A stretch of DNA of 64,000 bases. Source: Chloroflexi bacterium bin125 (GTDB lineage: Bacteria; Chloroflexota; Dehalococcoidia; Bin125). The notes beneath the pieces were generated by a model. It saw only the letters and a list, made by a program, of their open reading frames with translations, had not been told where the DNA came from and ran no database searches. Position 1 is the first letter of the stretch; the number at the start of each line of letters is the position of its first letter. Of this stretch, positions 2,927-63,264 are shown one piece after another. The stretch spans positions 248,001-312,000 of the forward strand of contig MPNM01000002.1 of assembly GCA_002239025.1 (NCBI GenBank), read 5' to 3'. The position numbers were made by a program, and so were the translations under genes.

Positions 2927-4093
2927 ATGGAATATCGATTCAGCGACAAAGCGCTCGACTTCGAAGCCGAAGTCAACGAGTTTCTCGACCAGTCATGGAC
3001 CGCCGAACTCAGGGCGACCATCGGCGATCCGACCACGGACACGATGGACGAGGAACGCGGATTCCGAAAGCTGCTGGCCGAGCGTGGTTGGCTGACGATG
3101 TCCTGGCCGGCCGAGTATGGCGGTCAGGAACGCTCGCTGGAAGAGCAATACCTCTTCTGGGAGGCGATGAACTACGCCGGAGCGCCGCAGGCGACGGTCG
3201 CCACGCAGCAGGTTGGCCCGACGCTGATGCGGTTCGGCACCGACGAGCAGCAGGAACGCTTCCTCCCGCCGATCGCGCGCGGAGAAGTCGAATTCGCCCT
3301 CGGCTACACAGAGCCCGACGCTGGTTCCGACCTCGCCTCGCTGCAGCTACGCGCCATCAAAGATGGCGATGACTACATCCTCAACGGAATCAAGCGCTTC
3401 ACCTCGGGCGCTCACCGCAGCGAGTACGTCTGGCTCGCGACTCGCACCGACCCGGACGCGCCCAAGCACCGTGGCGTCTCGATGATGTTGGTTGACATGA
3501 AGTCTCCCGGCATCACGGTCAAGCCGCTCTGGACGATGGCCGGCTATCGAACCAACGAGGTGTACTTCGAAGATGTGCGCGTCCCGACTAACGTCCTCGT
3601 CGGAGAAGAGAACCGCGGTTGGTACTACGCCGCGCACGCGCTCGACCGCGAACGGATTTCGATTTTCACCGTCTCTTCCGTGCGCGCCGTCTACGACAAC
3701 TTGATGGAATGGGCCAAGTCCGACACACCGATGGGCCGCCCAATCGACGACGCCGGGATCAAGAGGACGATGGCCGAGTTCAAGGTTCAACTCGAAGTCC
3801 TGCAACACCTGAGCTTCCGCATCCTCGACATGCTCAAGCGCGAAGAGTCGCCCAACTACGAGGCCAGCCAGGTCAAGATCTTCTCCACCGAGATGATGCA
3901 GCGACTACAGAACTTCTCATTGCATGCCATGGGACTCTACGGACAACTCAACGGCAACGACCCGAGAGCGCCAATCGACGGCTCCTCCGAAAACGGCTAC
4001 CTCGCCGCAGTCATGCCAACCTTCGGAGCCGGAGGAAACGAACTGCAAAGAAATATCATCGCCCAGCGAGGCTTCGGCTTGCCCCGCGCATAG
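2927..4093 (+). CDS. Acyl-CoA dehydrogenase family protein
   Basis: A FAD-dependent alpha,beta-dehydrogenase of acyl-CoAs, 388 residues from ATG 2927, which is preceded by GAGGGAG at a proper distance; the frame is open further upstream but only through the MFS shadow. The FAD/substrate signature GYTEPDAGSDL is at residues 126-136, and the C-terminus ends in GAGGNELQRNIIAQRG. In medium-chain enzymes the catalytic Glu sits in a Y-E-G-T motif there; here the aligned residue appears to be Ala, so the base must come from elsewhere or a partner subunit, as in several FadE-type families. The substrate is not predictable. Confidence 0.88.
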   Translation: MEYRFSDKALDFEAEVNEFLDQSWTAELRATIGDPTTDTMDEERGFRKLLAERGWLTMSWPAEYGGQERSLEEQYLFWEAMNYAGAPQATVATQQVGPTLMRFGTDEQQERFLPPIARGEVEFALGYTEPDAGSDLASLQLRAIKDGDDYILNGIKRFTSGAHRSEYVWLATRTDPDAPKHRGVSMMLVDMKSPGITVKPLWTMAGYRTNEVYFEDVRVPTNVLVGEENRGWYYAAHALDRERISIFTVSSVRAVYDNLMEWAKSDTPMGRPIDDAGIKRTMAEFKVQLEVLQHLSFRILDMLKREESPNYEASQVKIFSTEMMQRLQNFSLHAMGLYGQLNGNDPRAPIDGSSENGYLAAVMPTFGAGGNELQRNIIAQRGFGLPRA

Positions 4094-6891: not shown

Positions 6892-7539
6892 ATGGGCCGA
6901 TTCGAGCCTCTAGAAGAATCAGCACCGCCGCCCCGAGGATTGTTCGGAGCGACTTGCGCCGCCTGCGGCAAGAACACCAATCTGGGCGTCAAATTCTGCA
7001 CGTCCTGCCAGGTGCTTCGCTCGGACGCTGAACATGGCCACTCGCCGCGTTACGCCGCGACCCGAATGTCACGCTTCATGGGCGCCCTTGCCGACGGACT
7101 GATTCCAAGCGTGATCGGCCTGATCATCAGTTTGGCCAGCGTCGGAGGCCTGTTATCGCTTGAACTCTGGCTCGGTTCCGTGATTTGGCTGATCTGGTTC
7201 GCCGCTGTCGCGAAGCGAGGTCAGACGCCTGGCAAACAGCTCGTCTCGACGCAGGTCGTTCGCACAGATGGCGCACCCGCGTCACGCATGCTGATGTGGG
7301 CGCGTGAAGTCGGGTATCGCATCGCGGTCAATGTGCCCATGCTCCTGATCAGCTCCCTCTATCCCGACTCCGCGATCGCCAGCATCGTGGTCGTGCTGAT
7401 CGCGATGGTGGTCGTCGCCGACGGTGTCGCCATTTTCTTCAGCCCCGACAGGCAGACGCTCCACGATCGCGTCTTCGGCACGCTGGTCATCAGCATCCGG
7501 CCAGTCAAGCAAACCAGCGCGGAGCTTCGTGCACTATGA
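6892..7539 (+). CDS. Zinc-ribbon plus RDD-family membrane protein 1
   Basis: A 215-residue protein with an N-terminal zinc ribbon (Cys22/Cys25 and Cys36/Cys39) followed by an RDD domain with three to four hydrophobic segments. RDD signatures are AKRGQTPGKQLVSTQVVRTDG-like after the second helix and DRQTLHDRVFGTLVI at the C-terminal end. RDD proteins are poorly characterised; some are linked to ion or osmolyte transport. It is the first of three tandem paralogs and its stop overlaps the second (ATGA). The start 6892 lies 23 bases after the PHP stop. Confidence 0.85.
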   Translation: MGRFEPLEESAPPPRGLFGATCAACGKNTNLGVKFCTSCQVLRSDAEHGHSPRYAATRMSRFMGALADGLIPSVIGLIISLASVGGLLSLELWLGSVIWLIWFAAVAKRGQTPGKQLVSTQVVRTDGAPASRMLMWAREVGYRIAVNVPMLLISSLYPDSAIASIVVVLIAMVVVADGVAIFFSPDRQTLHDRVFGTLVISIRPVKQTSAELRAL

Positions 7540-8937: not shown

Positions 8938-11820
8938 CTATGAGCAGCCTGACGTTGCGCCGCAGTTCATGCAGCGGAAGCACGATCCGGAACGGACCAT
9001 GATCGATCCGCATTCCGCACATGGTGGAGCGTCGAGCTGATTCTGGAATCCGGCCGTCGACGAGGAGTCCACCAATGGAACCGCGACCGGCGTCAGAGTC
9101 ACCGGCGACGGTCCAGCCGACTCATCGGCGAGCTTGACCTCGTCCGCCGACATCGCCATCCGCGCTTGCTTGGCCACCGTGTCCGAGGAGTCTTCGTTCA
9201 GATATCTCGTGCCCATCCAGCGGAACACGTAGTCGAGGATCGAATCCGCATGCGGAATCTCCTTCGACCGCGTCCAGCCACTTGGCTCGAAGCGCATGTG
9301 CGCGAACTTTTTCACCAGCGTCGACAGCGGGACGCCTGACTGCAAGGCAACTGATGTCAACGTTCCGACCGCATCCATCAACCCTGAAACAGCCGAGCCT
9401 TCTTTGGAGATGTGTACGAACACCTCGCCTGGCTTGCCGTCCTCGAACTCGCCAATCGTCATGTAGCCTTCGTGCTCGCCGATCGTGAACTTGTGGGTCA
9501 ACGCTGCGCGCTCGTCCGGCAATCGATGGCGGCGATACGCCGGCGGCGACTTCGCACTCTCGATGACGACAGGTTCATCCATCGGCGACGACGGTCCCGG
9601 GTCAACCGCGACCTGCGCCACCGCGGGGCCGCTACGCTCGCCCGTCTCCAGCGGCTGAATCCGCTTCGAGTTGTCGCGATAGATCGCGACGGCCTTGACG
9701 CCCAGCTTCCATGCGTCGATGTAGGTCTGCATGATCTCGTCGACGGTGGTGTGCTCGGGTACGTTGACCGTCTTCGAGACCGCACCGGAGAGGAACGGCT
9801 GCACCGCGCCCAACATCCGGATATGACCCGAAGGAGCAATGCTTCGCTGCCCCGACTGAGCTTTGAACGCACAGTCGAAGATCGCCAGGTGCTGCGCGTT
9901 CAGGTCCGCCGCGCCTTCAATCGTCCCCGTCTCGTCGATGTGCTCACCGATGCGCTCGATTGCGTCCTCGGCATAGCCCAGGCGCCGCAGCGCAGCAGGC
10001 ACCGTGCGGTTGACGATCTTGAAGTAGCCGCCGCCGGACAGATTCTTGTACTTGACCAGCGAAATATCGGGCTCCACGCCGGTCGTGTCGCAATCCATCA
10101 TGAAGGCGATCGTGCCAGTCGGAGCCAGCACCGTCGCCTGCGCGTTGCGATAGCCATGCGCCTCGCCCAGTTCAACCGCCTGACGCCAGGCGTCATCAGC
10201 GGCAGCGCGAACGACCGCGGGCACGCTCGACAGCCCGTCGATCCGCCCAACCGACGCCTGGTGCTTGCGCATCACGCGCAGGAACGGTTCGCGGTTGTCG
10301 GCGAATCTGGCAAATGGACCGATGCGTTCCGCGATCCGGGCAGACTGCCGGTATCCCTCACCGGTCATCAGGGCGGTCACCGTCGCGGCCAGCGCCCGAC
10401 CCTCGACCGAGTCATAGGGCAGTCCGCGAGCCATCAGCAGCGCGCCGAGATTCGTGTAGCCAAGCCCTAGTGGCCGGTACTTTTCCGAGTTCTCGCCGAT
10501 CAAAGGCGAGGGATAGGAGGCGTTGGAGACCAGAATCTCTTGCGCCGTAATGATCACGCGGCAAGCATGCCGATACGCATCGACGTCGAACTCGTGCGTC
10601 TCAAGGTCATAGAACTTCAGCAGATTCAGAGACGCCAGGTTGCACGCCGTGTCGTCCAGGAACATGTACTCGGAGCACGGGTTTGACGCATAGATTCGGT
10701 CGGTGTTCGAGCACGTGTGCCAGTCGTTGATCACCGTGTCGAACTGCATTCCGGGGTCGCCGCACTGATGCGTCGCCGCAGCAATGGCGCGCAGGATCTC
10801 ACGGGCCGGAATCTGCTCTACCACGTTCTTGCTGACCACTTCACGCGTAGCCCACATCCCGTTCGCTTCGACCGCCTGCATGAACTCATCGGCGACGCGG
10901 ACTGAGTGGTTCGCGTTCTGGAACGACACCGAAGAGTAGGCGTCGCCATTTAGCGAGCCGTCGTACCCGGCATCGATCAGCGCCCACGCCTTGCGCTCTT
11001 CGTCGGCCTTGCAGCCGATGAACTCCATCACGTCCGGGTGGTCCGAGTCGAGGATGATCATCTTCGCCGCGCGGCGCGTCTTGCCACCCGACTTGATCAC
11101 ATTGGCGAACGCGTCATAGCCGCGCATGAACGAGACCGGTCCCGACGCCTTACCGCCGCCGGTCAGCGACTCACGGCTCGATCGCAGCGTCGACAGATTC
11201 GAGCCTGTGCCGCTACCCCACTTGAACAGCAGCGCTTCGCGCTTGGCCAGGTCCATGATCGACTCCATCGAGTCCTCGACAGAGTTGATGAAACAGGCTG
11301 AGCATTGCGGCGTTTCCTCAATGCCAACATTGAACCAGACCGGCGAGTTGAACGCCGCGTACTGATTGATCAGCAGATAGCGCAGCTCCTGCGAGAACGC
11401 CGAGGCCGCCGCGCCGTCGCTGAAGTAGCCACCCTCGCGTCCCCATCGCGTAATCGTCTCGACCACGCGATCGACCAGGGTTTTCATCGACGTCTCGCGC
11501 TGAGGCGTGCCGGTTTCTCCCCAGAAATACTTGGAGGCCACAATGTTCGTCGCCGTCTGCGACCAGAACGATGGTGTCTCGATGTCGGTCTGCTCAAAGA
11601 TCACCTCGCCTGAGTCGGAAGTGATCGCCGCCGTGCGATACGTCCATTCAATCTGTGCGTAGACATCCTCACCAGGTTGGGTGAAGTGGCGGCCAATCAG
11701 CGGCTCGCGGACGACACGTGCAACAGGCTGGGCGGAACTGGTCTCCTCAACTGTCGCTTCTTCCGCGAATGCAGCAGTCGCTTCATCAGCAGCATCAGTG
11801 TGGTCGTCGGCCCGAGTCAT
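8938..11820 (-). CDS. nrdJ: Vitamin B12-dependent (class II) ribonucleoside-diphosphate reductase
   Basis: Reduces ribonucleotides to deoxyribonucleotides using a thiyl radical made from adenosylcobalamin, so oxygen is neither needed nor harmful. The 960-residue protein shows NSPVWFNVG, CSACFINSVEDSMESI, the loop FKWGSGTGSNLSTLRS and the active-site sequence NPCSEYMF with the radical Cys and its Asn/Glu partners. The far C-terminus has a zinc-ribbon-like CAECG...CFRCMNCG for re-reduction. I chose ATG 11820 because AGGAG lies 8 bases upstream; an in-frame GTG/ATG 45 bases earlier has none. No other reductase class appears in the window. Confidence 0.95.
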   Translation of the reverse strand: MTRADDHTDAADEATAAFAEEATVEETSSAQPVARVVREPLIGRHFTQPGEDVYAQIEWTYRTAAITSDSGEVIFEQTDIETPSFWSQTATNIVASKYFWGETGTPQRETSMKTLVDRVVETITRWGREGGYFSDGAAASAFSQELRYLLINQYAAFNSPVWFNVGIEETPQCSACFINSVEDSMESIMDLAKREALLFKWGSGTGSNLSTLRSSRESLTGGGKASGPVSFMRGYDAFANVIKSGGKTRRAAKMIILDSDHPDVMEFIGCKADEERKAWALIDAGYDGSLNGDAYSSVSFQNANHSVRVADEFMQAVEANGMWATREVVSKNVVEQIPAREILRAIAAATHQCGDPGMQFDTVINDWHTCSNTDRIYASNPCSEYMFLDDTACNLASLNLLKFYDLETHEFDVDAYRHACRVIITAQEILVSNASYPSPLIGENSEKYRPLGLGYTNLGALLMARGLPYDSVEGRALAATVTALMTGEGYRQSARIAERIGPFARFADNREPFLRVMRKHQASVGRIDGLSSVPAVVRAAADDAWRQAVELGEAHGYRNAQATVLAPTGTIAFMMDCDTTGVEPDISLVKYKNLSGGGYFKIVNRTVPAALRRLGYAEDAIERIGEHIDETGTIEGAADLNAQHLAIFDCAFKAQSGQRSIAPSGHIRMLGAVQPFLSGAVSKTVNVPEHTTVDEIMQTYIDAWKLGVKAVAIYRDNSKRIQPLETGERSGPAVAQVAVDPGPSSPMDEPVVIESAKSPPAYRRHRLPDERAALTHKFTIGEHEGYMTIGEFEDGKPGEVFVHISKEGSAVSGLMDAVGTLTSVALQSGVPLSTLVKKFAHMRFEPSGWTRSKEIPHADSILDYVFRWMGTRYLNEDSSDTVAKQARMAMSADEVKLADESAGPSPVTLTPVAVPLVDSSSTAGFQNQLDAPPCAECGSIMVRSGSCFRCMNCGATSGCS

Positions 11821-13249: not shown

Positions 13250-14257
13250 CTAGTTCTCGCGGTAACGCTCCAGGAACTCCAACATCAGCCGGTTGACGTC
13301 TTCCGCGCCTTCCTGCTGCACCCAATGTCCGCAGTCCGGCAGATACGTAATCTCGAATGGGCCGCTGAACAAGTTGTCCATGCCCTCGGTTAGTTCCTTG
13401 CCCAGAGCCGTGTCGCGTTCTCCCCAGAGCAGCAGCGTAGGCGCGGAGATCACAGGGAACTCCGTGGATTCTGCGGGTGCGGAGCCAAGCACACTGTCAA
13501 GCGCCTGAGCCAGCCCAACGAACCGCTTACCAAGACGAGTTCGAGACTCCTGCGCTGCGGCGCGGACCGCCGCGCGATAGAAGTGCAGCGGCCCTGTCAA
13601 GCCGTTTCGTGCCGCCGCCCGGCGATACTCCTGCAATACCTCTGGCGGAAACGCCTCGGGATGTGCGGCGCTGTCGCGCAACGCCCAGCCCACGCGCTCG
13701 TAGTCATTGGTGGCCAACCAGCGCTCGGGCAGCTTTGGAATCTGAAACACGAACATGTACCAGGAGCGGCCGATCTGGCGGAAGTTGATCTTGCTGCCAA
13801 ATGCCTCCGCCATGCGCTCCGGATGCGGCGCATTCATCACGACTAGCCGCTCAACGGACGCCGGATAATCCATGGCGAACTGCCAGGCCACCGCGCCACC
13901 CCAGTCGTGACCGACGATGACTGCCTGTTCACGACCAAAGTGAGCGATCAGACGTTGCACATCTTCCGTTAGCAGATCCATCGAATAGTCCTGCACGTCC
14001 GAGGGAGCGTCGGAGAGGTTGTATCCACGAAGGTCGGGTGCCACAACCCAATACCCAGCAGCCGCCAGTGCCGGAATCTGTAGTCGCCAGGACCACCAAA
14101 ACTCGGGAAAGCCATGCAGCAAAATCGCCAACGGCGCGGAATCTAGGTCGCCCTCGGGACGGGCTTCGGTGTAATGCAACCGAACCCCGCCGGCTCCTTC
14201 GGCAAATCCATGAGTCCAGATGCCTACCGGTTCGGACTCAGTTGACGGGTCGCTCAT
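13250..14257 (-). CDS. Alpha/beta hydrolase, epoxide hydrolase-like (1)
   Basis: A 335-residue soluble hydrolase. It has the oxyanion motif HGFPE, the nucleophile elbow GHDWGG (Asp nucleophile, as in epoxide hydrolases and haloalkane dehalogenases), the acid region LLWGERDTALG and the catalytic His in DCGHWVQQEG. The start is ATG 14257, overlapping the upstream gene's stop (ATGA); an ORF extension upstream is only antisense or overlapping sequence. It forms a coupled tandem pair with a paralog. Epoxide hydrolysis is most likely, but dehalogenation or ester hydrolysis cannot be excluded. Confidence 0.85.
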   Translation of the reverse strand: MSDPSTESEPVGIWTHGFAEGAGGVRLHYTEARPEGDLDSAPLAILLHGFPEFWWSWRLQIPALAAAGYWVVAPDLRGYNLSDAPSDVQDYSMDLLTEDVQRLIAHFGREQAVIVGHDWGGAVAWQFAMDYPASVERLVVMNAPHPERMAEAFGSKINFRQIGRSWYMFVFQIPKLPERWLATNDYERVGWALRDSAAHPEAFPPEVLQEYRRAAARNGLTGPLHFYRAAVRAAAQESRTRLGKRFVGLAQALDSVLGSAPAESTEFPVISAPTLLLWGERDTALGKELTEGMDNLFSGPFEITYLPDCGHWVQQEGAEDVNRLMLEFLERYREN

Positions 14258-15153
14258 TGCTGTGGCGTTCCAACGGCTTTGGGTGTCAGGAAATCCAGCA
14301 TCGCAGCGGTCACTTCCTGTGGCTTCTCTTGTTGGACCCAATGGCCGGCGTCATCAATCAACACGGTGCGCAAATCGTCCACCCGTTCAGCGGCTTCTTC
14401 CATGAACGGCAACCGCACCGCGCGGTCCTCTCGGCCCCAGATGAACTGGGTCGGACAGGTGATTCGCGCATTGCGATCTGGCCAGGTCAGGAACCAGTTT
14501 GGCCAGTAGATCGATCGGTAGTACTTCATTGCCGATGACAGCGCGTTCGGCTGCTTCAGTGCCTCAGCGAAGATTTCGAGATCATTCTGAGTGAATGCAT
14601 CTTCGTTATCGCCGACGCCTCTGAAGACTCGGCTGGTCGTCTCGTCAATGTCTGACCAAGCCTTGCGCTCGGATAGGCCCGGCACTTGCATCAGCAGTGC
14701 ATAGGTGTTGTTTGGGTAGTTCCGCTTGCCCCAATACCACGAGCGGACCAGCGGAGCGTTCATCACGATCAACCGGTCGCAGGCTTGGGGGTAATCGATT
14801 GGGAATTGCAGTGAGATCACTCCGCCCCAATCGTGCCCGACGATGGTCGCCGATTGCTCGCCGAAGGCTCGAATCAATCCGCGAACATCTTTGGTCAGAT
14901 TCTTGATGTCGTATCCACTGCGAGGCTTGTCCGACAGGTTGTAACCCCGCAAGTCAGGAGCGACGACTCGGAACCCCGCCTCGGCCAACGGGCCAATCTG
15001 GTGCCGCCACGAGTACCAGTGCTCGGGAAACCCGTGTAACAACAGGACCAGCGGGCCTTCACCCTGGGTCACGTAATGCAGGCGGACTCCGTTGGTCGTC
15101 GCGTAATCGTGGGTCCAGCCTGCTGGATCAAATCCAGGTTCTACTGCATTCAT
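14254..15153 (-). CDS. Alpha/beta hydrolase, epoxide hydrolase-like (2)
   Basis: A 299-residue paralog and operon partner of the next gene downstream. HGFPE is at residues 40-44, the nucleophile Asp108 in VGHDWGG, the acid in FIWGREDRAV and the His in DDAGHWVQQEKP. RGYNLSDKP after the second strand is typical of soluble epoxide hydrolases. Cap-domain tyrosines expected to polarise the epoxide are plausible in the KYYRSIYW region. The pair overlaps by 4 bases, so both are probably made together and may act on related substrates. Confidence 0.86.
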   Translation of the reverse strand: MNAVEPGFDPAGWTHDYATTNGVRLHYVTQGEGPLVLLLHGFPEHWYSWRHQIGPLAEAGFRVVAPDLRGYNLSDKPRSGYDIKNLTKDVRGLIRAFGEQSATIVGHDWGGVISLQFPIDYPQACDRLIVMNAPLVRSWYWGKRNYPNNTYALLMQVPGLSERKAWSDIDETTSRVFRGVGDNEDAFTQNDLEIFAEALKQPNALSSAMKYYRSIYWPNWFLTWPDRNARITCPTQFIWGREDRAVRLPFMEEAAERVDDLRTVLIDDAGHWVQQEKPQEVTAAMLDFLTPKAVGTPQQ

Positions 15154-15210
15154 GCGAACCTCCGCCTCGAGCGGCGCATTGATGCAGCCCGAGCATGCAA
15201 ACGAAATCTG

Positions 15211-16542
15211 TTAGTTCAACCAGGCCAATGGATTCACCGCTTGGCCGTCAACGATGACTTCAAAGTGCAGGTGCGCACCGGACGAATTTCCGGTGTTTCC
15301 CACCGTTCCAATGTAAGCGTTGGACTCAACCCATTCTCCCTCGCGAACCCAAATTTCATTCAAGTGCGCATAACGCGACCGATATCCGCCGCCGTGGTTG
15401 ATTTCAATCCAGTTGCCGTAAGACGGATCCCATGTCGCAACCGACACCTGCCCCGCCGCCGTCGAACCAACAATCGTGCCGACTGCCGCGACAAAGTCCA
15501 CGCCGGTGTGGTAGCCCACAGAGTTCGCACGCGGCGTGCCAAACAGGTCGCTGATCTCGTCGTAGCCCAACGGCCAGATGAAGGTCGGCACTGTCCAGAC
15601 CTGTGTGCCCCCATTGCCGCCAGAGCTGGCCGTCGCGACACTGCTGGTCGCCGGGAGCGATGCCGACCCATGCACCAGCAGCAACTTCTGCCCGACATAG
15701 ATCTGGTCAGGACTCGATATCCCGTTGGCTGGGTAGGCCAGCGTCGCCTGTCGGTCGCTCTGGAAATTATCCATCAGATGATCGAAGCCATCGCCCGGCT
15801 GCACTGTGTAAACGAGCCCATTGACAGGCGGTAAGTTCAAGAGCTGCCCGACCGTCAAGTGGTTCGGGTCGTAGATGTCAAAGTTGTTGAACAGAACCGT
15901 GGCCTCTTCGAGCCCGAACCGTGTCGCGATGCTCGACGCAGTGTCGCCAGCCTGAACCTCGTACGTGAACGACACCGGCAACTGCGCCGCCGCGTGCAGT
16001 CCCATGTAGTCACGAATCCGCCACGCCGGATCGTCAAGCACGGCAGCATCGCTTGACGCAGCGCTCACGGCGGCACCTGTTGAAGTCGCCTCTGCCTGTC
16101 GGGTATCGGCTACCGTCTGCGAAGCTTCAGCCGTTGTCGCTGCCTCGCCTCGTTCTGTTTCGATCGGTCGCGTCGGCGAGGTGAGTACTGTTCGTTGCGT
16201 GCTTGCCTCTGCCGGAGTGGTAAGAGCGCCCGTAGTTGCTGCGGGGCTGGCCACCTCACTCCGCTGCTGCTCGGACGAAGTGGGCGGCGGCACGGTCGCG
16301 GGATTGCGTGCCTCGGCGCGTGGAGACTCCACAGTTGTCGCCGCGGGCAACCCCATGAGCGCTGCCCCATCGGAAGAGAGTCGGAGATCGAACACGACGG
16401 CGAGCATTGCCACCAATGCCGCAGTTGTGACGATCAGGAGAGACCATTGTTGTCCGGTAACGGCGGTCCGCTGCGGCGGACTCTCGACCAACGCCCAGCC
16501 ACCGAGGCGACTACTGAGCAGCGGCTCGGCCAATCTCAGCAT
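15211..16542 (-). CDS. Membrane-anchored LysM / M23-family peptidoglycan endopeptidase
   Basis: A 443-residue envelope protein. A transmembrane helix lies at about 32-52, followed by a long Ala/Thr/Ser-rich linker (55-175), two LysM-like peptidoglycan-binding repeats (VQAGDTASSIATRFGLEE and VQPGDGFDHLMDNF, both with the GD motif) and a C-terminal M23 zinc peptidase. The peptidase shows GYHTGVDF (His and Asp ligands), SRYAHL and GAHLHFEV (HxH ligand). All zinc residues are present, so it is probably active, cutting or remodelling peptide cross-links, possibly during division. It is divergent from the sirtuin leader. Confidence 0.9.
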   Translation of the reverse strand: MLRLAEPLLSSRLGGWALVESPPQRTAVTGQQWSLLIVTTAALVAMLAVVFDLRLSSDGAALMGLPAATTVESPRAEARNPATVPPPTSSEQQRSEVASPAATTGALTTPAEASTQRTVLTSPTRPIETERGEAATTAEASQTVADTRQAEATSTGAAVSAASSDAAVLDDPAWRIRDYMGLHAAAQLPVSFTYEVQAGDTASSIATRFGLEEATVLFNNFDIYDPNHLTVGQLLNLPPVNGLVYTVQPGDGFDHLMDNFQSDRQATLAYPANGISSPDQIYVGQKLLLVHGSASLPATSSVATASSGGNGGTQVWTVPTFIWPLGYDEISDLFGTPRANSVGYHTGVDFVAAVGTIVGSTAAGQVSVATWDPSYGNWIEINHGGGYRSRYAHLNEIWVREGEWVESNAYIGTVGNTGNSSGAHLHFEVIVDGQAVNPLAWLN

Positions 16543-16628
16543 CCGCTCGGCCCCTCTGTCAACAGGTGGTTATCAGCCACCCTCATTACGTCAGTAGCTT
16601 AACGCAGTTTGCCCTGATTCGAGTCCGA

Positions 16629-16657
16629 GTGACAAGTCCCTTGCGATCAGCTACTAT
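16629..16657 (+). promoter_or_regulatory. Probable sigma-70-type promoter for the leader and sirtuin
   Basis: GTGACA at 16629-16634 and TACTAT at 16652-16657 with a 17-base spacer, close to consensus TTGACA/TATAAT. Transcription from about 16664 would give a leader of roughly 160 bases ahead of the sirtuin start. Confidence 0.5.
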
Positions 16658-16688
16658 GAACACGGTTGGGAATCGAGAGGAGGATTCG

Positions 16689-16754
16689 ATGCGAAAGCTG
16701 AATATCCATCTGATCTTTGGAGTCCTTCAAGTTGACAGGCCGGGCTCCCGTTAG
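16689..16754 (+). CDS. Putative 21-residue leader peptide
   Basis: A tiny ORF beginning MRKLNIHLIF and ending PGSR. A strong ribosome-binding site (GAGGAGG, 16677-16683) precedes ATG 16689 at 5 bases. Its stop TAG lies at 16752-16754, at the loop and first base of the descending arm of a perfect hairpin. A ribosome reaching the stop would cover that hairpin, the layout of a translated attenuator leader. There is no run of one amino-acid codon to suggest which signal is sensed. Confidence 0.45.
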   Translation: MRKLNIHLIFGVLQVDRPGSR

Positions 16755-16760
16755 GGAGCC
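16743..16760 (+). promoter_or_regulatory. Leader hairpin 1 (GTTA loop)
   Basis: Perfect 7-bp stem GGCTCCC / GGGAGCC with a GTTA loop. It overlaps the last codons and the stop of the leader ORF. It lacks a following T-run, so it is not an ordinary intrinsic terminator. Confidence 0.6.
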
Positions 16761-16779
16761 GAAGGCACACGAGAAGATG

Positions 16780-16797
16780 CGCCCCCGTTAGGGGGCG
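16780..16797 (+). promoter_or_regulatory. Leader hairpin 2 (GTTA loop)
   Basis: Perfect 7-bp stem CGCCCCC / GGGGGCG with the same GTTA loop as hairpin 1, followed by TTGTCGT. The C-run and G-run of the two hairpins could also pair with each other, giving alternative folds ahead of the sirtuin ribosome-binding site (GAGGA, 16809-16813). Confidence 0.6.
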
Positions 16798-16823
16798 TTG
16801 TCGTATCTGAGGACAATTTGCGC

Positions 16824-17633
16824 ATGTCAACCCCGGCCGATCAGCTAGCAGACGAGCATCAGGACTCCGTCGAACGCGCGGCTGCGCTGTTAGCCCAGTC
16901 GCACTACTGCATCGCGCTGACCGGAGCCGGTATCTCGGCCGAGTCGGGTATCCCCACATTCCGGGGCAAAGACGGCCTCTGGACGAAGCATGGAGAACCG
17001 CCGCTCAACCAGTACGAGGAGTTCTCCGCCGATCCGGCTGAGTGGTGGCAGAATGTCGCGGAACGACGCCGAAATCCGGATGAACTGACGGCGACCATCG
17101 CCAACGCTCAACCCAACGATGCCCATTACGCCATGGCCGAGCTCGAGCGTATCGGCATTCTCAAGCACATCATCACGCAAAACGTCGACGGTTTGCACCG
17201 TGTCGCCGGAGCGCAGAGCCTGACCGAGATTCACGGCTGCACCACCCTCCTCAGATGCATCAACTGCAACACCCGCTCGCCGTTCGATGAGATTCCCGAG
17301 ATCTTCCCGCCTCGCTGCGACAAGTGCGGCGGCATCGTCAAGACCGATACGGTCATGTTCGGTGAACCGATTCCGCCCGACTGCCTCCAACGCTGCTACG
17401 AAGAATCTTCCAAAGCGGACTGCGTCATTCTCGTCGGCACCACTGCCGTCGTCTCGCCGGCAGCCGACTTCGCCTTCGCCATCGGACAGCGCGGACACCC
17501 GATGATCGAAGTCAACCTCGATCCCACAATCATCTCTCAGTACTGCGCGGTCGCGATACACGACAAGGCCGGCGAGCTGATGTCCCGAATCACCGCAGAG
17601 GTCAAGAGCGTCCTCGCCGACGATTCTGCCTGA
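16824..17633 (+). CDS. NAD-dependent protein deacylase (sirtuin, Sir2/CobB family)
   Basis: Removes acetyl or acyl groups from protein lysines using NAD. The 269-residue protein has GAGISAESGIPTFRG (34-48), TQNVDGLH (118-125), the catalytic His137 in EIHG, and a zinc site of Cys145/Cys148 and Cys165/Cys168. The later NAD-contact region reads ILVGTTAVVSPAA, where most sirtuins have GTS. Start ATG 16824 is favoured by GAGGA 10 bases upstream over TTG 16818. The unusual leader upstream suggests regulated expression. A role tuning acyl-CoA synthetases, common for bacterial sirtuins, would fit the acyl-CoA-rich neighbourhood but is inference. Confidence 0.93.
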   Translation: MSTPADQLADEHQDSVERAAALLAQSHYCIALTGAGISAESGIPTFRGKDGLWTKHGEPPLNQYEEFSADPAEWWQNVAERRRNPDELTATIANAQPNDAHYAMAELERIGILKHIITQNVDGLHRVAGAQSLTEIHGCTTLLRCINCNTRSPFDEIPEIFPPRCDKCGGIVKTDTVMFGEPIPPDCLQRCYEESSKADCVILVGTTAVVSPAADFAFAIGQRGHPMIEVNLDPTIISQYCAVAIHDKAGELMSRITAEVKSVLADDSA

Positions 17634-17673
17634 CACTGCCCAGTAACCGCCCTGTCGCCCCCGGGCCGATGCG

Positions 17674-17679
17674 TATACT
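17674..17679 (+). promoter_or_regulatory. -10 element consistent with a leaderless transcript
   Basis: TATACT sits only 6 bases before ATG 17686, with no Shine-Dalgarno sequence between. Transcription would start at or next to the start codon. Confidence 0.45.
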
Positions 17680-17685
17680 CGACCC

Positions 17686-19011
17686 ATGACAACGACACCC
17701 CAACTAGGCGTCAACTGGGACGACGTGACCGCCGAAATCACGTCGGTCCTGCGCGACTACCTCCGCATTAACACATCCAATCCGCCTGGGAACGAACAGG
17801 CCGCCGCAGAGTTCCTCGCCACCCTGCTCGAAGCCGAAGGCTACGAGTGTGAATACGTGGAGGCCGGTCCGGGCCGGGTCTCGATGCGCAGTCGACTCAA
17901 CGGAACTGGTGAAGAGCGTCCGCTCATGCTGCTCAACCACACCGATGTCGTGCCGGTCCAGGAAGAGTTCTGGGATGTTGACCCATTTGCCGCCGTCGAG
18001 CAGGACGGCATGCTCTGGGGACGCGGCGCTCTCGACATGAAGGGCATGGGCACGCTTGAGTTGCTGGTCATGCTGCTCTTCAAGCGCCTCAATCTCACAC
18101 CCAATCGCGACATCGTCTTTCTCGCCGTGGCCGACGAAGAAGCTGGTTCCGCTTACGGAATGGAGTGGCTCGACCAGAACGAGCAGGGTTGGATCACCGA
18201 GCCCGAGTTCGCGCTCAATGAGGGTGGTATGGGGGCCCTCAATTTGCTTGGTTCCAATCGCCCCGTATTCTCCTGCTCGCCCTCCGAGAAGTCGCCACTG
18301 TGGCTCAAACTGCGAGCCGAGGGTCAACCCGGACACGGTTCAACGCCGCATAGCGACAACGCCGTCGAGCGTCTGATTCGGGCGCTCTTCGCCATTCAGA
18401 ACTGGGATCGAGCAGTCACTGTCCAGCCGCACACCGCCGAAGCGATCCAGCGGATGCGCGATGCCAACGCCTGGGCAGGCTCAGCCCCCAGCCTGAACAA
18501 ACTGTGCCAGACGTATCCGGCCTTCGCGGCAGTCACTCGCGACACCATCTCCAACACTGGAGCAACGAGCGGCATCAAGCACAATGTGATTCCGGCCGAC
18601 GCCGAAGCCACGCTCGATTGCCGACTCTTGCCTGGCGAGTCCTACGACGATTTCATCAAGAGCATGCGAGACGTGATCGACGACGAAAAGGTCAATGTCG
18701 AAGTCGTCTTCGGCAGCATGGGTCCGTCAAGCAGCTTCGAGACCGAGATGGTCAGCGTGATCGAGGACGTCGTGCGCGAGCAGGTCGAAGGCGCGCTGGT
18801 CATTCCGTCCACGTGCGTGGGATTCACGGATTCCAGGGTCCTGCGTCGGCACGGCGTTCACTCATACGGTTTCGTGCCAACCTTGATGGACGCCTCGCTC
18901 GCCGCGGGCGTGCATGGCCACAATGAGCGCACGCCGATCGAAGGCCTCAACACCGGCATCCAAATCCTCTTTGAAGTCGTAAGGCGCTTCACCAACGCCC
19001 AGCGACTGTAA
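17686..19011 (+). CDS. M20-family metallopeptidase / deacylase
   Basis: A 441-residue two-zinc amidohydrolase of the ArgE/DapE/CPG2 family. The metal motif HTDVVP gives His85 and Asp87, GRGALDMKG gives the bridging Asp117, and ADEEAG gives the catalytic Glu151 and ligand Glu152. The dimerisation-domain segment GQPGHGSTPHSDNA and the late ligand in VHGHNERTP are also present, so it should be active. Substrates may be N-acyl amino acids, peptides or carbamates. It has no obvious operon partner and appears to start from a leaderless promoter. Confidence 0.9.
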   Translation: MTTTPQLGVNWDDVTAEITSVLRDYLRINTSNPPGNEQAAAEFLATLLEAEGYECEYVEAGPGRVSMRSRLNGTGEERPLMLLNHTDVVPVQEEFWDVDPFAAVEQDGMLWGRGALDMKGMGTLELLVMLLFKRLNLTPNRDIVFLAVADEEAGSAYGMEWLDQNEQGWITEPEFALNEGGMGALNLLGSNRPVFSCSPSEKSPLWLKLRAEGQPGHGSTPHSDNAVERLIRALFAIQNWDRAVTVQPHTAEAIQRMRDANAWAGSAPSLNKLCQTYPAFAAVTRDTISNTGATSGIKHNVIPADAEATLDCRLLPGESYDDFIKSMRDVIDDEKVNVEVVFGSMGPSSSFETEMVSVIEDVVREQVEGALVIPSTCVGFTDSRVLRRHGVHSYGFVPTLMDASLAAGVHGHNERTPIEGLNTGIQILFEVVRRFTNAQRL

Positions 19012-19055
19012 GTCCTCACCTAATCCACTCTGACAAACCTGCAGGGAGCCAATCC

Positions 19056-19868
19056 GTGCGACATCCTCAACTTGACGGACAGTGGGCCTTGATCCTCGGA
19101 GCATCATCGGGATTCGGCGGCACCTGCGCCGTCGCCCTGGCCGAGGCCGGCATGAACATCGCAGGCGTCCACCTAGATCGGCGCTCGACGATGGCCAATG
19201 TCGAGAAAATCGTCAGTCAAATCGAGAGCCACGGCCGGCAAGCATCGTTCCACAACATGAACGCCGCCGACGCTGCCAAGCGAGGCGAAATGCTCGACGG
19301 TCTGCGAGAACAGCTCGATGGTCAGGATGGCCCCAGTTCTGTCCGTGTCCTGTTGCATTCGCTGGCCTTCGGTACGCTCGGTCCATACATCGGCGAGAAA
19401 GAAGATCGGCCCATCTCCCAGCGACAGATGGAAATGACCATGGACGTCATGGCCAATTCCGTCGTCTATTGGACGCAGGAGATGTTTAGTCGAGGCTTAT
19501 TGGGTGAAGGCAGCAAGATCTACGGCATGACTTCCGGCGGAGACATGCGTGTCATCCCGCAGTACGGAGCTGTCTCTGCAGCCAAGGCTGCACTCGCTGC
19601 TCATCTGCGTCAGCTAGCCGTCGAGCTTGCGCCGAGTGGAATCGCAGCCAACGCGATCAAAGCAGGCATCACCCACACGCCCGCACTGGAGAAAATCCCG
19701 GCCGGGATGCAACTGCTCGACTTCGCCCAGAATCACAACCCCTCAGGCCGAGTCACCGAGCCCGAAGACATCGCCCGAGCCATCATCGGCCTCAGCCTCG
19801 ACAACTCCAACTGGGTCACGGGAAACACCATCAACGTCGACGGAGGCGAAGACATCACGGTGCTGTAG
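19056..19868 (+). CDS. FabI/FabL-type enoyl-reductase-like SDR
   Basis: A 270-residue short-chain dehydrogenase that starts at GTG 19056 behind GGGAG. The cofactor site is LGASSGFGG (14-22). Instead of the common YxxxK it has Tyr170 and Lys177 spaced as YxxxxxxK in PQYGAVSAAKAAL, the hallmark of enoyl-ACP reductases FabI/FabL. The first active-site Tyr of FabI is replaced by Ser, as in FabL. The C-terminal VTGNTINVDGGEDITVL is typical. It probably reduces an enoyl thioester (fatty-acid synthesis, or 2,4-dienoyl/enoyl-CoA) with NAD(P)H. Confidence 0.8.
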   Translation: MRHPQLDGQWALILGASSGFGGTCAVALAEAGMNIAGVHLDRRSTMANVEKIVSQIESHGRQASFHNMNAADAAKRGEMLDGLREQLDGQDGPSSVRVLLHSLAFGTLGPYIGEKEDRPISQRQMEMTMDVMANSVVYWTQEMFSRGLLGEGSKIYGMTSGGDMRVIPQYGAVSAAKAALAAHLRQLAVELAPSGIAANAIKAGITHTPALEKIPAGMQLLDFAQNHNPSGRVTEPEDIARAIIGLSLDNSNWVTGNTINVDGGEDITVL

Positions 19869-19905
19869 AGAGACGCTACGATTGAGATCAGGTAGGGGGA
19901 AGCTC

Positions 19906-20025
19906 ATGGCTGAGAGCAAACCATCTGCTTCAAAACCTGTTAAGTCGGCATTGCCCAAGAATCCCAAGGTCCCCCCTAACCGCCCGCCGAAGGTGATGGA
20001 TCGCTCTGCGTCGCAGGACAAGTGA
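19906..20025 (+). CDS. Tandem small basic Lys/Pro-rich protein, copy 1 (39 aa)
   Basis: A 39-residue protein starting MAESKPSASKPVKSALPK, then Pro-rich (PPNRPPKV) and ending SASQDK. It is strongly basic and probably disordered. A purine-rich ribosome-binding site (GTAGGGGGAAG) precedes ATG 19906. A near-identical second gene follows 132 bases later. I recognise no family. Coding is supported by the two independent ribosome-binding sites and because the differences between copies keep both frames open. It may bind nucleic acid or ribosomes, which is inference from charge only. Confidence 0.6.
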   Translation: MAESKPSASKPVKSALPKNPKVPPNRPPKVMDRSASQDK

Positions 20026-20037
20026 GGAGAAAGAGCA

Positions 20038-20145
20038 ATGGCTGAGAGCAAACCATCTGCTTCAAAACCCGTTAAGTCGGCATTGCCCAAGAATCCCAAG
20101 ACCCCCCCTGGCCGTCCGCCGAAGGTGTTGGATCGAGGTCTCTAG
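20038..20145 (+). CDS. Tandem small basic Lys/Pro-rich protein, copy 2 (35 aa)
   Basis: A 35-residue near-copy of the preceding gene. The first 21 residues are identical, then KTPPGRPPKVLDRGL replaces KVPPNRPPKVMDRS... It has its own ribosome-binding site (GAGGAGAAAGAGCA before ATG 20038), which overlaps the TGA stop of copy 1. Over the first ~104 bases I count about seven differences, two of them synonymous, which indicates recent duplication with both proteins kept. The 3' end lies 23 bases from a convergent gene. Confidence 0.6.
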   Translation: MAESKPSASKPVKSALPKNPKTPPGRPPKVLDRGL

Positions 20146-62806: not shown

Positions 62807-62841
62807 CCGTCATTCCCGCGAAAGCGGGAACCTATACAGCG
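62807..62841 (+). repeat. Left 35-base inverted repeat with GAAA-loop hairpin
   Basis: Contains TTCCCGCGAAAGCGGGAA, a 7-bp stem with a GAAA loop. The reverse complement recurs at 63230-63264 with one difference (T against C). Confidence 0.85.
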
Positions 62842-63229: not shown

Positions 63230-63264
63230 CGCTGTATGGGTTCCCGCTTTCGCGGGAATGACGG
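63230..63264 (-). repeat. Right 35-base inverted repeat with GAAA-loop hairpin
   Basis: Reverse complement of the left repeat with one mismatch. It contains TTCCCGCTTTCGCGGGAA on the + strand and lies 32 bases from the stop of the nitronate monooxygenase gene. Confidence 0.85.

Follow-up and report, generated by a model that had tools for sequence, protein, structure and literature searches.

The block at positions 16629-16809, lying upstream of a sirtuin gene in Chloroflexi bacterium bin125 (Dehalococcoidia, Chloroflexota), represents, judging by its sequence, the short form of a so far undescribed family of RNAs that carry a micro-ORF and are found in Chloroflexota. We analyzed a window of 64,000 nucleotides (GCA_002239025.1, contig MPNM01000002.1, positions 248,001-312,000, forward strand) and, by computation, found transcription signals, coding selection, RNA structure and a fixed register between a codon and a hairpin. 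As the best explanation, to which we give slightly better than even chances, we propose that this short-form unit acts as a nascent-peptide ribosome-arrest cassette at the start of the transcript of the sirtuin.

All the elements of the leader lie on the forward strand. A preliminary description had placed there a promoter, a ribosome-binding site, a 21-codon ORF and two hairpins, and we found all of them at their positions and kept in the 15 genomes of the genus. The promoter (GTGACA-17-TACTAT, 16629-16657) matches the consensus at 9 of 12 positions. It is the only promoter match within 14000-20000, where 1.3 are expected by chance; hence, the match alone is not above chance, and what makes the promoter credible is that both hexamers are kept in 15/15 genus genomes. 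It is followed by a Shine-Dalgarno sequence (AGGAGG, 16678-16683), also kept across the genus, and by the micro-ORF encoding MRKLNIHLIFGVLQVDRPGSR* (16689-16754), a 21-aa peptide with the core [YF]GV(L/W)QVD, recognized by its homologues and its pN/pS, and with no NCBIfam match. Hairpin 1 (GGCUCCC-GUUA-GGGAGCC, 16743-16760, pair probability 0.95) starts 6 nt 3' of the Asp codon (16734-16736) which, from the register of this hairpin, is the predicted P-site codon of an arrested ribosome. Hairpin 2 (CGCCCCC-GUUA-GGGGGCG, 16780-16797) has a stem of 8 bp when the flanking G-T is counted, and a partly T-rich tail, TTGTCGTATCTG (16798-16809), conserved in the genus and a possible weak terminator tail. 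No canonical T run follows hairpin 2 in this tail. Compared with an intrinsic terminator, the GC-rich stem is kept and so is the tail TTGTCGTAT, which is U-rich only in part.

The sirtuin ribosome-binding site (GAGGA, 16809-16813) precedes the sirtuin itself (16824-17633), a 269-aa NAD-dependent protein deacylase of the CobB/Sir2 type that scores above the cut-off of NCBIfam NF001753 and is encoded by a single-copy gene in the genome. The 26 nt between hairpin 2 and the sirtuin ATG hold this ribosome-binding site and no promoter match, and from this gap we infer that the sirtuin would be co-transcribed with the leader. The leader folds more stably than its shuffles (z -2.9), and hairpins 1 and 2 are the sole adjacent GC-rich stems of at least 7 bp in the window's intergenic DNA (~6.3 kb). 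Elsewhere in the window, a palindromic hairpin, TTCCCGC...GCGGGAA, occurs twice in one intergenic region (62813-62830 and 63240-63259) and is possibly a dispersed repeat, and positions 19868-20100 contain two near-identical short K/P/S-rich coding stretches in tandem (ESKPSASKPVKSALPKNPKVPPNRPPKVMDRSAS), with a repeated GFLGNADLTGFEADGLLSA on the opposite strand.

Using a 231-nt leader query, we recovered one homologous block in each of the 14 other genomes of the genus, with 77-87% identity across about 160-185 nt. The conserved block stops after hairpin 2, and the linker 5' of the sirtuin ATG varies across the genus in both sequence and length. Both hairpin stems are invariant in the 15 genomes, so no covariation is available within the genus. 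Loop 2, on the other hand, reads GTTA, TTCA, AGAG, GCAA, GGCA and others in the sister species of the 15-genome alignment; the twin GTTA loops pointed out in the preliminary description are thus real in this genome and do not constitute a shared motif. The peptide reads MRKLNIHLxxGVLQVDxxGS(R/H)* in all the aligned species. Among the 15 genus sequences, pN/pS of the ORF is 0.16 in frame, compared with 1.50 and 1.18 for the two alternative frames, and 0.10 for codons 1-16, outside the overlap with hairpin 1; among 47 distant relatives it is 0.36 against 1.07 and 1.43 off-frame. Since pN/pS is low in frame only, the ORF is selected for its peptide. Lack of conservation of the ORF or the hairpins had been named in advance as the observation that would speak against such a leader, and the invariant stems and the purifying selection on the ORF dispose of that objection. 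The leader is also present before the sirtuin in a sister genus (G017), in which the stop codon comes right after the Asp codon, 5' of hairpin 1, hairpin 2 is present and longer, and the tail reads TCGTCGTGTCTG. In G017 (L107/L269), the ATG of the sirtuin is preceded at about 8 nt by TACAAT, a -10-like hexamer that may belong to a near-leaderless promoter of the sirtuin itself.

Searching with a peptide profile, we obtained weak matches in other families of the class: short ORFs preceded by strong ribosome-binding sites and sharing the core [LI]Hxx[YF]GVxQVD. When this core was searched as a DNA pattern, 43 of 393 class genomes gave exactly one match each, while the reversed control pattern gave none in the 393 genomes. 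We also built a covariance model, R1, on the long-form RNA presented below and searched with it the genomes of the class and of the phylum. R1 found the RNA in 98/393 Dehalococcoidia genomes and 78/226 genera, with several copies in some genomes, and in 31 of the 331 genomes of the phylum sample, 25 of them outside Dehalococcoidia. The leader of the window is detected by this model with E = 1.7e-4 (414 kb searched). A second, peptide-level pattern was found in 24/395 Chloroflexota genomes, with 0 control matches. The distribution of the family is patchy throughout Chloroflexota, the phylum whose genomes were covered by R1 and the broad peptide searches; beyond it, we used genus-specific patterns only. 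Regarding known families, Rfam 15 gave no covariance-model match in the window at the gathering threshold and no match at E up to 1 for 14 family loci. No members were found among phage/viral contigs and plasmids, and the strings GVWQVD, YGVWQVD and GVLQVD were absent from the literature searched.

In its typical, long form, seen at most of the loci matched by the DNA pattern, the family is a stand-alone RNA gene of ~300 nt with a strong sigma-70-type promoter of its own and an extended Shine-Dalgarno sequence, followed in order by the micro-ORF (consensus M[RK]LHxx[YF]GVWQVDx*), the hairpin GCCCUGCC...GGCAGGGC that corresponds to hairpin 1 and a domain with a three-way junction; most long forms end in an intrinsic terminator. 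In 19 aligned long copies, 88% of the cells pair and 27 of the 37 pairs are changed on both sides, values reached by 0 of 500 shuffles; the structure was derived from these same 19 sequences, so that the share of paired cells leans upward, which is not how compensatory changes are produced. Slid structures on the same copies bring pairing down to 32-48%. The helix homologous to hairpin 1 shows compensatory change in 5 of its 8 pairs among the 19 relatives. Of the 55 long forms with enough upstream sequence, 25 have a promoter that agrees with the consensus at 10 or more of 12 positions, against 0.6 expected from shuffles. Most of these promoters keep a fixed distance of about 45-58 nt to the start codon, and TTGACA-17-TATAAT is found about 48 nt 5' of it in stand-alone relatives; a single-hexamer -10 test on the stand-alone copies gave no difference from shuffles, whereas the two-hexamer test does. 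The extended anti-SD complement is matched over 7-10 nt in 69 of 100 relatives. By manual count, the next gene is convergent in about 40% of the stand-alone copies, which are therefore not leaders, and Pfam confirmed five of these convergent neighbours (TatD, NMO, HAD, glycosyltransferase and PspC). An association with the upstream gene was considered and discarded, as ProRS is found there in one family only and ComEC, FtsK and others elsewhere (names from translations). Besides, some genomes carry second copies of the long RNA (L170 in G248, L181 in G186 and L191 in G143) whose ORF ends in GVWLFPS* or GVWIFPS* and not in GVWQVDS*, which suggests, from these endings, a paralogous peptide specificity.

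Short forms consist of the ORF and hairpin 1, directly 5' of co-directional genes. They precede the sirtuin in the genus of the window and in G017, and a PDH E1-alpha gene and a nitrilase-like gene in G023 (functions read from translations). In the multi-copy genome G311 (L195 at 260-401, 3602-3712, 7141-7244 and 9070-9170, L202 and L216) and in G360 (L204), most of them stand directly before genes whose translations have signal-peptide-like N-termini, and these repeated units look like a leader common to a secreted-protein family. Altogether, the genes identified 3' of family members include sirtuin, TatD, NMO, PDH E1, rpe, M16 peptidase and others; a cis-linked 23S rRNA methyltransferase, as served by ErmBL, is not among them. 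Within the family of the window, sirtuin upstream regions were compared in G019 and G016, with G018 left aside, and no sirtuin was found in G015. Both G019 and G016 have the sirtuin and lack the leader, so its association with the leader is lineage-specific. The ancestor of genera g1 and g4 probably recruited the unit to its place before the sirtuin.

Hairpin 1 keeps its distance from the Asp codon and does not follow the stop. In 81 of 102 loci, 6 or 7 nt separate the Asp codon from the start of the best hairpin, and a wider hairpin search placed a stem at 6-7 nt in 78/99 real against 13/220 shuffled sequences. By contrast, across the 102 loci the stop codon falls anywhere from 8 nt 5' of the stem to 72 nt past its start. 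The stop within the loop of hairpin 1, which had been taken for a key feature of the layout, is indeed seen in the window, together with a spacing of 6 nt from Asp codon to hairpin, and the register kept by the family is that of hairpin and Asp codon. The fixed spacing may partly come from common descent without indels. Drift has affected the stop, the length of the N-terminus and the C-terminal tail, some tails being read-through sequence encoded by the hairpin, while the spacing and residues -6 to 0, [YFW]-G-V-(W/L/R/F)-Q-V-D, are unchanged; several relatives carry R-Q-V-D. The fixed Val and Asp residues are encoded by every one of their four and two codons, respectively, and this synonymous freedom was not set by the search pattern, although the V and D positions partly were. 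Free ends and fixed residues just behind Asp are as expected for a chain in the tunnel, not for a mature peptide. As in arrest leaders of the ErmBL, TnaC and SecM kind, the conserved residues cluster in the last part of the chain, where the peptidyl-transferase centre would be close, and selection acts at the coding level (pN/pS of 0.16 and 0.36 in frame and no less than 1.07 in the others).

An arrest cassette of this kind would work as follows. The last residues of the nascent chain, ...[YF]GV(W/L/R)QVD, would exert their effect within the exit tunnel, close to the peptidyl-transferase centre, and the ribosome would halt with Asp-tRNA in the P site. Hairpin 1, at the mRNA entry side, would either reinforce the halt or be held open by it. 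Stalled on the 5' end of this mRNA, the ribosome could then tune how stable the sirtuin mRNA is or how often hairpin 2, which may be a weak terminator, is read through, and the effect would not pass through alternative hairpins. An arrest peptide would need a fixed sequence behind one codon, ends that are free to vary, a GC hairpin at the entry distance and an extended Shine-Dalgarno sequence, and this is the pattern seen. Points against it are a resemblance to ErmBL that covers a few residues of a peptide dependent on a macrolide, a spacing that may partly reflect descent, the invariant stems within the genus, and stand-alone copies that often have no target in cis.

The preliminary description had read the region as a translation-controlled attenuator of the sirtuin. 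What stands of it is a leader ORF with the look of a translated one and a hairpin placed where a ribosome finishing the ORF would meet it; what falls is a switch specific to the sirtuin, given that the unit is spread over the phylum, mostly as stand-alone copies, and that the G019 and G016 sirtuins lack it. In its classical form, the ribosome on the ORF would select between the hairpin 2 terminator and an antiterminator built from the arms, thereby controlling sirtuin transcription, and the succession of an ORF overlapping a hairpin, a second GC-rich hairpin, a conserved and partly T-rich tail and a gene does recall it. However, the pairing between C-rich and G-rich arms that had been proposed has an ensemble probability of 0.0, both free and with a ribosome imposed at the Asp codon. 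The imposed ribosome abolishes hairpin 1, leaves hairpin 2 unaffected (0.99) and changes the sirtuin Shine-Dalgarno sequence little, so a two-hairpin switch is not supported. An attenuator sensing charged tRNA is unlikely, too, because the codons of MRKLNIHLIFGVLQVDRPGSR form no run for any single amino acid. As hairpin 2 also lacks the canonical T run and the stand-alone relatives have nothing to attenuate, we regard the classical attenuator as very improbable; it is simpler to suppose that a ribosome stalled at the 5' end of the mRNA would influence its stability or how often hairpin 2 is read through. Hardly more probable is that the micropeptide itself is the product, a signal or regulator, with the hairpin merely protecting or terminating its RNA: the strong amino-acid conservation, promoter and Shine-Dalgarno sequence would suit it, but not the widely varying N-terminal length and C-terminal tail, down to tails read through the hairpin, nor the elaborate conserved RNA domain 3' of the ORF, nor the lack of an export signal.

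A more serious contender, which we still consider rather unlikely, is an independent gene for a small RNA or micropeptide that ends at hairpin 2, with the sirtuin downstream expressed by read-through or from its own promoter and no regulatory link between them. Most relatives are indeed stand-alone units with promoter and terminator, about 40% of them facing a convergent gene; the end of the conserved block after hairpin 2, the variable linker, the G019 and G016 sirtuins that do without the unit and the TACAAT in G017 all point the same way. Against this stand the promoter-free 26-nt gap with its ribosome-binding site, the lack of a T run after hairpin 2 and an arrangement kept in 15 species and G017, with the other short forms likewise preceding co-directional genes. 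It is also conceivable, though we hold it improbable, that the stand-alone RNA, strongly transcribed, captures a ribosome, which the extended Shine-Dalgarno sequence would load and the QVD chain and entry hairpin would stop, acting in trans or as an environmental sensor, and that some lineages re-use this cassette as a 5' leader, for the sirtuin in the window and for secreted proteins in other genomes.

According to these results, a structured RNA family with an embedded micro-ORF, not described before, is added to a phylum in which few such elements are known. The W/L/R-Q-V-D sequence with its entry hairpin is a candidate for a new ribosome-arrest sequence, and ~100 natural variants are at hand for structure-function work. 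The sirtuin leader of the window would be explained as a recruited general cassette rather than as a sirtuin-specific switch.

Compared with known systems, the leader resembles trpL and hisL in the order of leader ORF, hairpins and gene, and differs from them in having neither a regulatory codon run nor antiterminator pairing. Dual-function small RNAs of the SgrS/SgrT type are stand-alone structured RNAs with a small ORF and an intrinsic terminator; in contrast to them, our family has the ORF at the 5' end, a hairpin in codon register and no Rfam match. TnaC-type leaders, in which arrest depends on a ligand, have a short ORF whose conserved residues lie close to its stop codon. The ORF is likewise short in our family, but the position of the stop is not conserved and no link to Rho or tryptophan is known. 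A parallel is also seen with ErmBL, in which the ribosome stops when Asp10 occupies the P site and for which Arg7 and Val9-Lys11 are critical (PMC4935803). Both have a very short leader ORF and an RNA structure beside the arrest site, a predicted one in our family, and R7-N-V-D10 of ErmBL and (W/L/R)-Q-V-D of our family have like residues at -3, -1 and 0, which, on the aligned residues, is a resemblance over a few positions and not membership. ErmBL arrests only with a macrolide and serves a methyltransferase gene, whereas our family has no resistance gene, is followed by many unrelated genes or by none, and carries a GC hairpin fixed 6-7 nt after Asp.
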